Source: a virus
DNA length: 41,330 nt
Direction: 5' to 3' (one strand)
IMG/VR virus record: IMGVR_UViG_3300049846_001501
Coordinates: 1 to 41,330 of that record
Made by a program: the position numbers and the translations under genes
Notes under the pieces: generated by a model
Told to the model about the DNA's origin: nothing
The model's database searches: none
What the model saw: the letters and a program-made list of their open reading frames with translations, nothing else
Shown here: positions 5,723 to 25,733 of the stretch, piece by piece
How the letters are laid out: every line of letters starts with the position of its first letter
Position numbering within the stretch: position 1 is the first letter of the stretch

Positions 5723-6601
5723 ATGAAAAATTTAATTATTGATATCAGCCCTTTGGCATATAGATGTTTATTTGGTGCTAAGGATGACATTAAAATGTTA
5801 GGTATTAATGTTCTAAGAAGTTCGCTTCTTCGTCAAATACTCATGTCTGTTGATAGATTTAAACCAGATAAGGTATTTATTTGCTTTGATTGTCAAGGTA
5901 AGAATTGGCGAAAACAAAAGTATGATTTCTATAAAGGTCATAGAAAAGAACTAAGAGATAAACAAGATATTAATTGGGAAGAGTTTTATGAGTTCTTAAA
6001 GGGATTCTATAACGAATTGACTGATAATTTTCCATTCTACTCATTACGACATGATAATTTAGAAGCAGATGATATTGCAGCACATCTTGTTAGAAGATAC
6101 TCAAATGATAATAATATTGTTGTCACCAATGATAGTGACTATCTACAATTGCTCAAGTATAAGAATGTTGAGATATATGATTCAAAAACTGGTAAAAAGA
6201 AAACTTGCGAGAGTCCTAAAAGGTTCTTAGAGGCTAAGATTTTAACTGGGGATACATCTGATAATATTCCACCAATTAGAGCAAGAATTGGGCCAGTTAC
6301 CGCAGAAGAATTAATTGATAGTGGTAAAATTTATGAACTTCTTAATGAAGTTGATGCTGATGGGAAACCAAAAGAAATAAAGAGAAACTATGATAGAAAT
6401 AAAGAACTCATAGATCTTGAAAATACCCCAGAAGAACTTATAATGAGTCTTGAAAATTTAATTGATGATTACCAATTAACAGATACAAGAAAACTTACGA
6501 CATATGTTCGTGATATGAACTTAAGAGAGTTATTTGATAATATTTCCGCAATTAGAAGGAATTTATCAAAACTCACACCAACCGCAACCCAACAGTCGTA
6601 G
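5723..6601 (+). CDS. rnh: RNase H / 5'-3' exonuclease, T4 rnh type
   Basis: The protein has 292 residues (T4 RNase H is 305). The start at 5723 has AGGA eight bases upstream; upstream TTG and ATG alternatives are less well placed. It shows the flap-nuclease acidic set in order: Asp7 in LIIDIS, Asp56 in ICFDCQG, Glu114-Asp116-Asp117 in LEADDIA, Asp137 and Asp139 in TNDSDY, and Asp177-Asp180 in GDTSDN. The conserved Arg/Lys stretch WRKQKYDFYKGHR lies between. In T4 this enzyme removes RNA primers and adjacent DNA from lagging-strand fragments. It is the only replication enzyme in the window. The stop lies inside the 3' end of the convergent gp4 gene. Confidence 0.9.
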   Translation: MKNLIIDISPLAYRCLFGAKDDIKMLGINVLRSSLLRQILMSVDRFKPDKVFICFDCQGKNWRKQKYDFYKGHRKELRDKQDINWEEFYEFLKGFYNELTDNFPFYSLRHDNLEADDIAAHLVRRYSNDNNIVVTNDSDYLQLLKYKNVEIYDSKTGKKKTCESPKRFLEAKILTGDTSDNIPPIRARIGPVTAEELIDSGKIYELLNEVDADGKPKEIKRNYDRNKELIDLENTPEELIMSLENLIDDYQLTDTRKLTTYVRDMNLRELFDNISAIRRNLSKLTPTATQQS

Positions 6602-7016
6602 CCTCTTTAAATACTTTATTTTCCATATAAAGTACCTTAAAGTTCCAGTTATGTGCTTTACAGTAGGCTCTAGCAGCCTTCCATTTAGCATCGTTTAAAA
6701 CCCATCTCTCTTGCTGTTCCATCAAAGTCTTTTTCCTCTTCTTGGGGGAAGGGACTGGTGGTTCCGTTTCGTGTTTTGGTTTTATCTCAATCATTTCAAT
6801 TCTAGTAGTAGAACCTTCTTTAATCTTAACAACGAAATCTGGGTGATAGTGCCACTTCGTACCTGTTAATGGATTGATATAAGGAACTTCTGGTTTCTCA
6901 CTGATCCATTCAATGACATTAGGGTTTCTATCAAGAAACTCCATCATAGAACGTTCCCATCCACTGCGGAAAAAAGGTAATTTTACACCTTTATATTTTT
7001 CCCTATTTTGAGGCAT
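6573..7016 (-). CDS. gp4: Head completion nuclease-like protein gp4
   Basis: This is the only minus-strand gene. I prefer the ATG at 7016, read MPQNREKYKG, because it has AAGG seven bases upstream and gives 147 residues, close to T4 gp4 (150). An upstream ATG at 7076 adds 20 residues but lies too close to the promoter to have a leader. The sequence has SGWERSMMEFLDRNPNV, then YHPDF and MIEIKPK, the Glu...Asp...ExK pattern of a TnsA/PD-(D/E)XK-like nuclease. In T4, gp4 acts on filled heads before tail joining, probably trimming DNA. The last 29 bases overlap the end of rnh in the opposite direction. Confidence 0.85.
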   Translation of the reverse strand: MPQNREKYKGVKLPFFRSGWERSMMEFLDRNPNVIEWISEKPEVPYINPLTGTKWHYHPDFVVKIKEGSTTRIEMIEIKPKHETEPPVPSPKKRKKTLMEQQERWVLNDAKWKAARAYCKAHNWNFKVLYMENKVFKEATTVGLRLV

Positions 7017-7083
7017 AAAAAAGCCTTGATGGTGGTCGCTACTTTTGTTGACTTTGAAGTTTAAATGATTGCTCATAAACTGA

Positions 7084-16113: not shown

Positions 16114-16887
16114 ATGGCAGGCTTAAACAACCCACTTTCAAAGAAAAAGTTCTTCAAGCAATATACTGGTCCTTGGAATCAGTATAATGAAGTTCAGATG
16201 TACGATAATGCGATGGCGGAAGTGTTTGCCATCAGCGGGATTCCTATTGATTATTTTCCAGTAGATGTAAACTATAATAGAGACAGAATATTTGGCGAAG
16301 ATGTAAACAAGAGATATATCTATAAAAGACAATTAACATGTATAGTTAAAGATGGGGCATTTGAAGAGAATCTTGTTTATAATGGATTTGGTGAAATAAC
16401 TCAAGTCGAGTTTCAGATATATATTCATTTACCAACTTTCAGAAAATTAGTTTCTCGTGATCCTCTCCCTGGTGACAATTTCTATCTTCCACAAGTTAGT
16501 AATATTGGTTATGAAATTCTTCATGTAGATTGGATGACATTGGGGTTAGAAGGTAATATTTTTGGTCAAAAAAATGTATATATTTTAACTTGTAAGAATA
16601 GAGAATTTTCAAACGAGCAATATGGTGTTACTGATCAAAATGGAAATCTTATTGCTGGTGCTCCAGCAGATGCTTATGTTGAAGATGGTTCTGGTAGAAT
16701 TAAAGACAAATATAATGTCCCTCGCCCAAAAACTTTGGCTAATGCAGACGGTCCAAATGACTTTGAGCAATTCGCAGATAATAAAGCAATACGAGATATC
16801 ACTGAAGGAAAGAAAGATCCATTAACTGGATTGAGAAGCGGTGGGATAGTTTTAAAGAGGGACAGGGCTTACTGGGGTGATTGGTAA
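16114..16887 (+). CDS. gp14: Neck protein gp14
   Basis: The protein has 257 residues (T4 gp14 is 256), six bases after gp13. The N-terminal stretch with YDNAMAEVFAISGIPIDYFP and the sequence RDPLPGDNFYLP followed by YEILHVDW are characteristic. The ribosome site is weak, so translation is probably coupled to gp13. It joins gp13 in the neck that seals the head and receives the completed tail. Its stop overlaps the next start (TAATG). Confidence 0.88.
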   Translation: MAGLNNPLSKKKFFKQYTGPWNQYNEVQMYDNAMAEVFAISGIPIDYFPVDVNYNRDRIFGEDVNKRYIYKRQLTCIVKDGAFEENLVYNGFGEITQVEFQIYIHLPTFRKLVSRDPLPGDNFYLPQVSNIGYEILHVDWMTLGLEGNIFGQKNVYILTCKNREFSNEQYGVTDQNGNLIAGAPADAYVEDGSGRIKDKYNVPRPKTLANADGPNDFEQFADNKAIRDITEGKKDPLTGLRSGGIVLKRDRAYWGDW

Positions 16888-17717
16888 TGAAAAAATATTT
16901 AAGAAATAAAATTAAAAGTCTCTTTATAGAGGCAAATGTACTTAAAGGTGGATTGGCAGATAATAAATCTCTTGAAGATATTGCTGTTAAACACGGTGTT
17001 TCTATCGAACACTTGAAACAACAATGGGATATTGGTTTGGAAGTTGAAAAAGAACATACCGATAGTAACTTAACGGCAGATGAGATTGTTAAAGATCACT
17101 TATGGGAAAATCCAAGTTACTATAGTGACTTAAAGAAGGCTGGGATAGACGAAGAGAAACTTAACGAGATGCCAGCATGGAAGGATTCTAGTAAGAATAT
17201 TTCAACAAGTATTGATTCTAACTATGATGCTTATAAGAAATTTTTAGCTGATGGTGGTTTTAATAAATTAGATAAATTTAAAGTAAATAAAGAATACTCT
17301 GGTGAAATTTACGAAAGAAATAAAGACACTATATATGTAATAATTTTAACGAATTATTTTCCAGAAGTTGTTGGTGAATTTATTTGGAGAAAAAATAATA
17401 AAAATCAATGGCAGACCGAATCCGCTGCTGTTGCTGATGAACATCATGGAAAAGGTATCGCTACTACTGTTTATATGCATATGATTGAGAATTATTTCCA
17501 TACTTTATATTCTGATGTCACCTTAACTGGTGAAGATGGATATGGAAGTTTTAATATATGGAATAGATTAAGTCAACAATACAATGCATATATTTATGAT
17601 GGTAAAAACTATACACCAGTAAAAGAGTTTACTAGAGACATGATGGGAAAATATGATGAATTGTTTGTAGTTTCTGTTGATGAATTAACAAACAATATAG
17701 AAGAATTAAATGTATAA
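16887..17717 (+). CDS. DUF5661-like domain fused to a GNAT-like acetyltransferase domain
   Basis: The protein has 276 residues, starting at the ATG in the TAATG overlap with gp14; an in-frame TTG at 16881 was not used. Residues 23-85 match the phage DUF5661 pattern: SLEDIAVKHGVS, then GLEVEKEHT, then a DHLWENPSYYSDL segment. Residues about 135-245 look like a GNAT fold: a VVGEFIWR strand, the acetyl-CoA loop HHGKGIA at 186-192, the following helix, and later strands. The N-terminal SLFIE-ANVLKGG fits the gp21 cleavage rule, so it could be packaged in the head and processed. T4 has no gene here between gp14 and gp15. Enzyme activity and substrate are unknown. Confidence 0.6.
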   Translation: MKKYLRNKIKSLFIEANVLKGGLADNKSLEDIAVKHGVSIEHLKQQWDIGLEVEKEHTDSNLTADEIVKDHLWENPSYYSDLKKAGIDEEKLNEMPAWKDSSKNISTSIDSNYDAYKKFLADGGFNKLDKFKVNKEYSGEIYERNKDTIYVIILTNYFPEVVGEFIWRKNNKNQWQTESAAVADEHHGKGIATTVYMHMIENYFHTLYSDVTLTGEDGYGSFNIWNRLSQQYNAYIYDGKNYTPVKEFTRDMMGKYDELFVVSVDELTNNIEELNV

Positions 17718-17731
17718 ACTAAAAGAAAAAA

Positions 17732-19141
17732 TTGGAGGTAAGCAATCGCTATGAAAAATTTTACTATAATAAGGTGATATGGCACCATATTGCCGCATTC
17801 AGTGATATCTTCAACGATATGCAAGTGCATATTTACGATGCCGAAGGTAAAGCAGTCGGCACCAAACAAGTACCAGTTTATCTTGCTCCTAAAGAAAAAG
17901 TTGTGGCGGCATTGATGAAAGGTAATTGGGATCAAAACCCAAATCAACAAGGTATCCAGTACGAAAACTATCTCCCATCCATTTCTATTGTATGGAACGG
18001 TGTATCCCTTGATGCAGAAAGAATGAAAGGTCAAAGAGATAAAAGAAGACTTTATGTTGAATATGCTGATAAAGATGAAGATGGTTGTGATGAGAAATAT
18101 GTCCACACCGATATTCAGACTGTTCCTTATAAGTTAAACTTTGAAGTTACTTTGTGGGCTAAGTATATGGATGATTTGGCTCAGTTACTTGAAAATATTT
18201 TACCTTTCTTCCACCCAGAAGCTTACATCTCCCTTTATGAAAAAGGTGTTGGTTCCGAAAGAAAATGTAAAGTTGTTAAAGAATCTGAAAATCTTAATTT
18301 CGTTTATGAGTTAAATCAACCAGATCGAAGAGTCTTACAAGCAACTATTTCCTTTAATATGGAATGCAATTTCTATAAACCAGAAAATCCAATTGATAGA
18401 CCAATACAGAAAATGTATTTAAATATAGGACAACCACAGGCTAATAATAAAGCTTTTGGTGAACAAGTGGTGGTTTTCTCAGCTACCTCTGGTGGTGCTT
18501 GTTTTGCCGACATTGAGGAAAATTTAAGAAGCTTTATAAAAGAATTTAAAGCCGAAGATGAATTCTATATAAGTCAATATTATGATGAAGTTAGTGGCCT
18601 TCCAATTCAACCAAATGAAATGAAGCCACTTCATATACCACAGGGTCTTATAGACTCAATGAATAGAAGAGATCCAAAACTCGGTAAGCAAGATGCTTTT
18701 GGTGTTGTTAATACCACGATAGGTTCTCAGACAGTAACAGTAACAGATTCCAGAATAAGGGCTAGTTCAATTGTTTCAGCATATGTTGTAACTCCAAATG
18801 GTAATGCTCCGTTAAATGTCACTGTAACTGATGTTAATGATGGTAACATTGTATTAACACTATCTAATATACCAACAAGCACTAGTTATAAAGTAGTCTG
18901 GAGAGCGGAAATTATAGGTGATCTAGTAGTAGATATACCAATTGGGTCAAATACAATTACTATAGTTGATCCAAGAGTTAACACATCATCAATACCAATT
19001 GTTGACATTTATAATACAACCGATGAAGATAATATTTCAATTAGTGGTATATTAAGTATCAATAATGGAAATTTTGTGGTACAATTATCAGATATACCAC
19101 AAGTAAATGGTTATAAACTCGTATGGAGTGTGGAGAGTTAA
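17732..19141 (+). CDS. gp15: Tail terminator/sheath stabiliser gp15, with probable frameshifted start
   Basis: The interval is the open frame; its first codon, TTG at 17732, has no ribosome site. The ATG at 17751, which follows GGAGG, is one frame off. Reading from that ATG and slipping -1 at A AAT TTT (17756-17762) gives MKNFYYNKVIWHH, which lines up with T4 gp15 MFGYFYN from the first residue. Residues to about 230 resemble gp15 (T4, 272 residues), which forms the hexamer capping the tail and binding the neck. The C-terminal 140 residues are two tandem beta-rich repeats of about 70 residues (about 18701-18915 and 18922-19138), each ending YK(V/L)VW. Its place before gp16-gp17 agrees with T4. 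It is either a recoded gene or one with a single-base deletion. Confidence 0.82.
   Translation: MEVSNRYEKFYYNKVIWHHIAAFSDIFNDMQVHIYDAEGKAVGTKQVPVYLAPKEKVVAALMKGNWDQNPNQQGIQYENYLPSISIVWNGVSLDAERMKGQRDKRRLYVEYADKDEDGCDEKYVHTDIQTVPYKLNFEVTLWAKYMDDLAQLLENILPFFHPEAYISLYEKGVGSERKCKVVKESENLNFVYELNQPDRRVLQATISFNMECNFYKPENPIDRPIQKMYLNIGQPQANNKAFGEQVVVFSATSGGACFADIEENLRSFIKEFKAEDEFYISQYYDEVSGLPIQPNEMKPLHIPQGLIDSMNRRDPKLGKQDAFGVVNTTIGSQTVTVTDSRIRASSIVSAYVVTPNGNAPLNVTVTDVNDGNIVLTLSNIPTSTSYKVVWRAEIIGDLVVDIPIGSNTITIVDPRVNTSSIPIVDIYNTTDEDNISISGILSINNGNFVVQLSDIPQVNGYKLVWSVES
17773..17794 (+). other. Hairpin just downstream of the gp15 slippery heptamer
   Basis: A 9-bp stem (17773-17781 with 17786-17794, two G-T pairs) closes the loop GCAC. 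It begins 10 bases after the A AAT TTT heptamer at 17756-17762. It contains the TGA (17775-17777) that ends the unshifted frame. It is in the right place for a frameshift stimulator, but hairpins this size also occur by chance. Confidence 0.4.
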
Positions 19142-24941: not shown

Positions 24942-25733
24942 ATGACTGATAGACCTACTTTTTCGTTGGTTGATTTAAAGAAAGCTTATGCTACCAAATC
25001 TTCCCCAGAAAATGCTGTTAAACTTTGTTATACACAAAAAGAAGTTTTCGTAAGACCTTTAAAAATTAAAGATAAAAAGGAAATTCTTAAAGCAATTGAA
25101 TCAAAAAACGAAACCATTATCAATAAGGCTTTAGATGAAGTTATTGAAAAATATGTCGAATATTCCGATGGTTCTAATTTTAATGTCAGTACTTTAACAT
25201 CACAAGAAAGATTCCAATTACTTGTTCATATTAGAGTATCTGCTGCTGGAACAACAGCAAAAATAGCCCACGAGTGTCCAAAATGCGGTCATGTCAATAA
25301 AGATATAACTTATGATTTGACAAGCATGTATGTTAAAAATTACACTAAACCAGAAACAGGCGACTCAATTTCTTTAGCAAATGGTAATATTAAAATAAAA
25401 TTAGGCCCAATGACTAGAGATAAAGAAATAGAAATAGAAAAATATGTTAAAAAAGCAAAAATAGCTACTACTGCTGAGAAAAATTTTGCTTTGATGGCTG
25501 GCGTTATTAAAAGCATAACTATGCTTCAAGATGATATTGAAAATGAAGTTAAGTTATCACTTGATGAAACCATTGATTTCTTTGAGAATCTTCCAGCTAT
25601 TGAATTAGATAAACTCCTTGATTACTTTAAGAGTACAGACTTCGGTGTTAAAATGCCATTTGAATTCAAATGTGAACAATGTAACCACGAAGGAGAGGAA
25701 GAGGTTAATATAGCTGTTTTTTTTATCAGCTAA
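24942..25733 (+). CDS. gp26: gp26-like hub protein / tape measure chaperone with zinc sites
   Basis: The protein has 263 residues (T4 gp26 is 208), behind AAGGAG. The layout resembles the T4 baseplate protein family: VFVRPLKIKDKKEI near the start, then LTSQERFQLLVHIRVSAAG. CPKC (112-115) and CEQC (244-247) probably bind one zinc. In T4, gp26 helps hub and tape-measure assembly. The gene ends GTT TTT TTT ATC AGC TAA, a run of eight T (25717-25724). A -1 slip there would bypass the stop and continue into the next ORF. It also ends in a TAATG overlap with it. Confidence 0.72.
   Translation: MTDRPTFSLVDLKKAYATKSSPENAVKLCYTQKEVFVRPLKIKDKKEILKAIESKNETIINKALDEVIEKYVEYSDGSNFNVSTLTSQERFQLLVHIRVSAAGTTAKIAHECPKCGHVNKDITYDLTSMYVKNYTKPETGDSISLANGNIKIKLGPMTRDKEIEIEKYVKKAKIATTAEKNFALMAGVIKSITMLQDDIENEVKLSLDETIDFFENLPAIELDKLLDYFKSTDFGVKMPFEFKCEQCNHEGEEEVNIAVFFIS

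Follow-up and report, generated by a model that had tools for sequence, protein, structure and literature searches.

The closest described counterpart of the locus considered here is mobA/gene 60 of phage T4, for which the primary paper is reportedly that of Bonocora and colleagues. According to two accounts, the insertion of a homing endonuclease gene (HEG) there lies beside a 50-nt stretch that is bypassed in translation, and the suggestion has been made that this protects against cleavage (PMC5009743, PMC3014915); the second describes the bypass as apparently unique among T4 relatives (PMC3014915). We compare with that system the start of gp15, a tail gene, in a T4-like virus record carrying portal, prohead protease, capsid, terminase and baseplate-hub genes (IMG/VR record IMGVR_UViG_3300049846_001501, positions 1-41,330, hereafter the window, to which coordinates refer) and in its relatives. 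The long gp15 frame of the window (17732-19141, + strand) lies -1 relative to the frame of the ATG at 17751. We give an even chance to the explanation that the gp15 start is recurrently broken in association with a HEG and that the window holds a real escape or scar allele, rescued by -1 slippage. It is plausible, though short of an even chance, that HEGs have repeatedly built mobile cassettes here, in which the frame break marks the site as self and +1 or -1 slippage, or an AUA or AUU start, rescues the gene.

The association between HEG and break was counted in 41 records, L042, L048 and L063 having been dropped because their gp15 start lies off the contig. A HEG is placed directly upstream of gp15 in ten of these, nine of them visible and one (G007, whose contig ends before the HEG position) assigned from its near-identity to G005. 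By eye, a canonical start at the conserved N-terminus is lacking in 10/10 records with the HEG and present in 29/31 without it, the exceptions being the window and L002 (Fisher 5.9e-8; with near-copies collapsed, the start is lacking in 6/6 against 2/23, 5.9e-5). Under a looser rule, which accepts an ATG, GTG or TTG anywhere in frame ahead of the conserved stretch and hence counts starts inside the HEG (L032/L072, L074) and the TTG at 17732 of the window, no start is found in 7/10 with the HEG and in 1/31 without it (3.9e-5; collapsed, 4/6 against 1/23, 0.003). Across these records the link appears strong, but not exclusive, and it holds under both rules. An earlier note, made from the window alone, had proposed a shift or a one-base deletion in this one sequence; that the breaks in relatives are +1 and HEG-linked goes beyond what a single-sequence view could show.

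The inserted genes are well recognisable. All five inserted open reading frames (ORFs) that were scanned (L005, L018, L019, L021 and L032) match phrog_559, an HNH endonuclease family, with E values of 7e-45 to 1e-54, and also phrog_9084, a homing endonuclease family; treble-clef zinc fingers are clear in the HEGs of L005 and L021, and the L074 HEG has 40% identity to that of L018. Genes of the same family occur before other genes too, and among 26 such loci inspected by eye, drawn from 80 retained of 100 found, an ordinary start follows the HEG in L075, L076, L077, L092, L095, L099 and L121. A group I intron was rejected for the gp15 insertions, since no Rfam match reached the gathering score in six loci and only about 15-30 nt separate the preceding gene from the HEG in L018, L032 and L005. 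In L019, about 430 nt (642-1068) lie between gp14 and the HEG and show, by eye, a 25-nt direct repeat and a strong inverted repeat; all Rfam families score below gathering in that stretch.

In the other relatives with a broken start, the frame is lost within gp15 codons 1-9 and then rejoins a conserved NKVIW-like stretch. The first form (type A; L018, L019/L020 and L032/L072) reads ATG TAY AAT TAC TTT C..., with one extra base at codon 5, and a +1 step at TTT-C would give MYNYFYNK in L018 and L019, the same N-terminus as in the intact L017. By codon logic, the same tRNA reads both frames at such a TTT-C. The second form (type B; L005/L006/L007 and L021) reads GTG CGN AAT ... A TAA C, with a stop as its ninth codon; it is seven bases longer than the intact form, and a +1 step would restore NKVIW. 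The gp15 proteins of L005 and L021 have only 45% identity. L074, if it starts at the conserved N-terminus, does so with an ATT behind AAGGAG that overlaps the HEG stop codon (L074 895-921), and an in-frame TTG and the motif TATAAATA, which we take to be the T4 late -10 motif, stand slightly upstream, inside the HEG. L002, which has no HEG, would start with an ATA behind GAGG.

These breaks are repeated in separate contigs (L005/L006/L007, L019/L020 and L032/L072), and L005, L006 and L007, which have the break in common, are told apart by 5 to 7 further sites, of which two are in gp15, both synonymous. Assembly error is therefore an unlikely general answer for the HEG-bearing relatives, since the same break recurs in separate contigs, some of which may represent one population. 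Transcriptional slippage was also judged unlikely, the runs being short and type B having none at the shift. A 16-nt hop from AAT to AAC in L005 and L021 is conceivable on paper, but it would drop conserved residues. No second gp15 copy was found in 22 records, two matches in G012 and in G016 being pieces of one gene, and no phage tRNA that could act as a helper was found in the window or in six loci, the latter examined as loci and not as whole genomes.

The clearest evidence for movement comes from L017, which has no HEG and an intact gp15, and L019, which has both HEG and break. They are 93.7% identical over 1581 nt of gp15 and beyond, with a single gap, the frame-breaking T at codon 5. L019 is a mosaic: 15 informative sites are L018-like against 3 L017-like in the first 120 nt of gp15, and 26 against 322 over the following 1440 nt (p 2.6e-13). 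To the left, L019 has the 15 nt after the gp14 stop in common with L018, and in the final 600 nt of gp14 it sides with L017 at 98 sites and with L018 at 11. The simplest reading of this pattern is that an L017-like phage acquired the HEG, the break and the opening ~120 nt of gp15 from an L018-like donor, and the mosaic itself would most simply be the footprint expected of homing with co-conversion. Joint movement of HEG and insert is seen, in these alignments, in one case only (L019) and not in the window. In addition, L018 and L032 share a 37-nt identical run extending from the last HEG codons through the ATG to the shift site, against 69% identity over 600 nt.

At the level of sequence comparison, then, three things are established: the HEG-break link, one co-transfer, and a gp15 frame that is conserved before as well as after the break. 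On the explanation favoured here, a free-standing HEG would insert directly before gp15, accompanied by a disturbing change in codons 1-9, and the ribosome would recover the gp15 frame by a +1 step at TTT-C or TAA-C, or in one lineage probably by initiation at ATT; that the gp15 frame stays conserved beyond the break speaks for such a recovery. By analogy, the insert may block cleavage, so that the break would guard the site from the phage's own endonuclease, as has been proposed for the T4 mobA/gene 60 bypass. In the HEG-free window the break would either have allowed escape from a HEG or have been left behind by one since lost, and low-level production of gp15 would depend on -1 slippage at A AAT TTT, with a hairpin helping.

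Turning to the window itself, the identity of the gene is well supported: the gp15 frame matches PF16724 (E 7e-36) and phrog_227 (tail sheath stabilizer / tail terminator), and an alignment of the window with its relatives matches PDB 4huh (E 1e-11), in agreement with T4 gp15, the tail terminator. The ATG at 17751 opens a short frame (17751-17777, + strand), MKNFTIIR, which ends at TGA 17775-17777 and whose first four codons, MKNF, are the N-terminus of the intact L001 and L004. The Shine-Dalgarno (SD)-like GGAGG (17734-17738, + strand) and the early closure of this frame are as the earlier note described them, and so is the lack of a ribosome site before the TTG at 17732, the only canonical in-frame start 5' of the conserved FYYNKVIW. 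The GGAGG lies 12 nt 5' of the ATG, and in 22/26 SD-led starts among 37 other listed gene starts of the window the spacing is 5-9 nt.

It is possible, if unlikely, that the deletion is real and that TTG 17732 simply serves as the gp15 start, without any frameshift; the N-terminus would then exceed that of intact relatives by some six residues. The gp15 frame is open from this codon, poor starts are apparently used by L002 (ATA) and L074 (ATT), and L074 and L032 also have upstream in-frame starts; on the other side, no SD lies ahead of the TTG, where 26/37 other gene starts have one, and the GGAGG overlaps and follows it. The sequence GTGA at 17774-17777 (+ strand), which the earlier note did not mention, places a GTG of the gp15 frame across the TGA of the short frame, and a restart there, downstream of the break and with loss of the conserved N-terminal residues, is an improbable explanation to which we give little weight. 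A restart would suit L021 and L018, where a GTG in frame follows closely on the break, but L005 and L019 offer no in-frame start until 18-19 codons beyond the break, and yet the NKV[IL]W residues ahead of that start are conserved, and T4 gp15 has the same N-terminal register.

The candidate -1 slip site of the window is the heptamer A AAT TTT (17756-17762, + strand; X XXY YYZ form), which is in frame and from which a -1 slip would give MKNFYYNKVIW. The placing of this product in the register of T4 gp15 was borne out, although weakly, by the alignment of T4 YFYN at residue 4 with the window FYYN (a 3.5-bit piece). Ten nucleotides after the heptamer begins a 9-bp hairpin (17773-17794, + strand), which folds as claimed, at -9.7 kcal/mol, and is equalled or bettered by 5/200 dinucleotide shuffles and by 29/5000 synonymous recodings. 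The same stretch folds to only -3.6 to -4.3 in the intact L001, L003 and L004, where the hairpin is not formed, and to -7.2 with a different shape in L002. Against the hairpin, the longer stretch 17732-17800 folds unremarkably, 78/200 shuffles being as good. The heptamer is weak evidence, because the codons for KNF as AAA AAT TTT create it anyway and the intact L003 also has it in frame. Of the parts of a canonical -1 site that the earlier note named, heptamer and hairpin are both present. Slip site and stem are not conserved among the relatives, which are either intact or broken differently.

A conserved slip sequence of another kind, GTTTTTTTTATCA, was observed at 25716-25728, at the 3' end of a baseplate-hub-like gene (phrog_150) and before a gene with a weak tape-measure match. 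It is identical in the window and in six relatives (G002, G005, G009, G010, G016 and G017) and was not found in the stretches of G001 and G004 that were covered. A -1 slip there would give FFYQLM and join a conserved frame of ~95 aa, an arrangement which we take to resemble the G/GT tail chaperone frameshift. This conserved T8 site makes -1 slippage on U-runs in the hosts plausible, no more.

The nearest relatives bear on how the break arose. L001, L003 and L004 have an ordinary ATG start and the N-terminus MKNFYYNK or MQNFYYNK, and L001, which has 83% identity to the window over gp15 and 91% across the 265 columns used for the tree, has five T, as has L003, where the window has four (17759-17762). 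Since L001 and L003 have one more T, a deletion or an error at the DNA level is indicated, as the earlier note had allowed in suggesting that one missing A or T would explain the frame equally well; of its two proposals, the one-base change stands, and the programmed -1 slip in the window is a candidate only. Five T in relatives had been named there as grounds for an assembly error; they are found in both these relatives, and recoding may all the same occur in the window.

The missing T may accordingly also stem from faulty assembly or sequencing, or from a defective minority in a population whose gp15 is otherwise intact, a live explanation that we nevertheless consider improbable. In its favour are the homopolymer, with its five T in L001 and L003, and the coverage of the break region by a single contig, an exact 40-mer search, in a collection that may lack the nearest kin, having found no second copy of the window population. 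Against it, no other frame break was detected in the 32,724 of 41,330 window bases covered by relatives' proteins, a comparison that is blind to first codons and does not detect the gp15 break itself; the comparison gave five breaks in relatives, all against minus-strand window frames and taken as spurious. A hairpin at -1 spacing matched by 29/5000 recodings, and breaks of gp15 at nearly the same place in other lineages, likewise argue against an error. A genome-wide control of starts flagged 17 of 293 ORFs tested, of which 4 were the gp15 of G002, G005, G009 and G010 and the other 13, by eye, comprised alignments beginning before the start codon (including G001 gp15), the FFYQLM overlap and short frames; this control fails to flag gp15 of the window, G012 and G017. 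If the window holds an escape or scar allele, -1 slippage is the likeliest rescue, initiation at TTG 17732 the main alternative and restart at GTG 17774 a minor one.

A different kind of account, which we regard as doubtful, is that the breaks throttle expression: few copies of gp15 would be needed, and poor starts or breaks would cut translation where late promoters or inserted genes raise the mRNA. It is equally doubtful that, on this account, the HEG link is due to the promoter that the HEG brings and not to immunity from homing. ATA and ATT are weak starts, TATAAATA motifs precede the HEG of L018 and of L032 and, in L002-L005, L021 and L074, precede gp15, and the account covers L002 and the window, both without a HEG. 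However, L003 and L004 have TATAAATA and yet a plain ATG, the break was co-transferred with the HEG in L019, and no TATAAATA occurs near the window gp15.

Several observations weigh against the HEG-linked explanation with slippage in the window. The window has no HEG match (phrog_559: 0), its break is of the opposite sense (-1 and not +1), and a single contig without a second copy covers it. Neither the pair L019/L020 nor the pair L032/L072 shows any difference in the stretch compared, so that each may be one population. In-frame starts offer themselves in L032/L072 (ATG and TTG) and L074 (TTG) within the HEG and in L021 (GTG) just past the break, and recoding is therefore not strictly forced in these lineages; the TAA-C site is without evident tRNA re-pairing. 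A second L018-like patch lies in L019 600-840 nt before the gp14 stop, so recombination between these phages reaches beyond the cassette. On the gp15 tree, which does not include L074, the seven broken rows need 7 changes and 0/200 bootstraps give one origin, but no more changes than this are required by any of 500 label shuffles (mean 5.7), and the starred branches force only 4; the scatter on the tree thus proves little, and the break label is not clustered by descent. Finally, known free-standing HEGs cut hundreds to thousands of bp away (PMC2988022).

As for the surroundings, the window has a gp14-like head closure gene (16114-16887, + strand; phrog_679) as upstream landmark, followed by a DUF5661 gene between gp14 and gp15 (16881-17717, + strand) with a GNAT match just under the cut-off. 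Up to the gp15 start the window lacks about 120 codons and about 240 nt that L004 has, and the DUF5661-gp15 border must therefore have been rearranged in one or the other; no HEG remnant was recognised in the window stretch before gp15. The intervening gene seems modular: the copies scanned carry DUF5661, those of the window and L004 add a weak GNAT match, and L001-L004, unlike the window, have by eye a further C-terminal part. TATAAATA occurs 14 times on the + strand of the window and once on the - strand, with none just before gp15, unlike in L002-L005. A TnsA-like endonuclease gene (6573-7076, - strand; PF08722, E 3e-18) adjoins a 5'-3' exonuclease gene upstream of the portal gene, on the opposite strand. 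The length of gp15 varies widely in the clade, and in L032 (2420-5542) it is extended at the C-terminus by about 700 residues of repetitive appearance. Cultured phages provided 1960 records with gp15 relatives, all at <60% identity, and a scan of genome contigs gave no confirmed relative; literature searches, from whose coverage subscription literature was mostly missing, found, among the titles listed, none on a gp15 frameshift.

In regards to known recoding systems, the window resembles a standard -1 programmed frameshift in its in-frame A AAT TTT and in a 9-bp stem 10 nt further on. It differs in that the site falls at codons 3-4, that the heptamer comes free with the KNF codons, that break and stem are not common to relatives, and that the unshifted product would be eight residues only. 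Type B is like prfB in that the shift would occur at a stop codon followed by C; unlike in prfB, no internal SD at the prfB spacing was seen, and there is no evident re-pairing at ACA/AGA-TAA. Compared with compensation by savior indels (PMC5009743), the possible benefit here would be protection from homing.

The nearest likeness is to mobA/gene 60, where a free-standing HEG likewise adjoins a gene with a frame-disturbing 5' insert that is missing in HEG-free relatives. A HEG beside a gene that would be recoded is found in L005, L018, L019, L021, L032 and L074, and not in the window. The differences from gene 60 are that the insert is of 1 or 7 nt and not a 50-nt gap, with a putative +1 shift in the first nine codons; that the gene is gp15 and is not split; that five HEG-bearing lineages are concerned, with ATT in a sixth; and that the recoding is here a prediction from sequence. 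If the slippage is real, the gp15 case would be a smaller and recurrent version of the gene 60 kind, in an essential tail gene, with L017 and L019 as a natural empty/occupied pair, and if the window allele is real such breaks can persist without a HEG. Should the explanation prove true, frame-broken starts beside HEGs may be functional, which calls for caution among annotators, and homing endonucleases could drive the birth of recoding sites.
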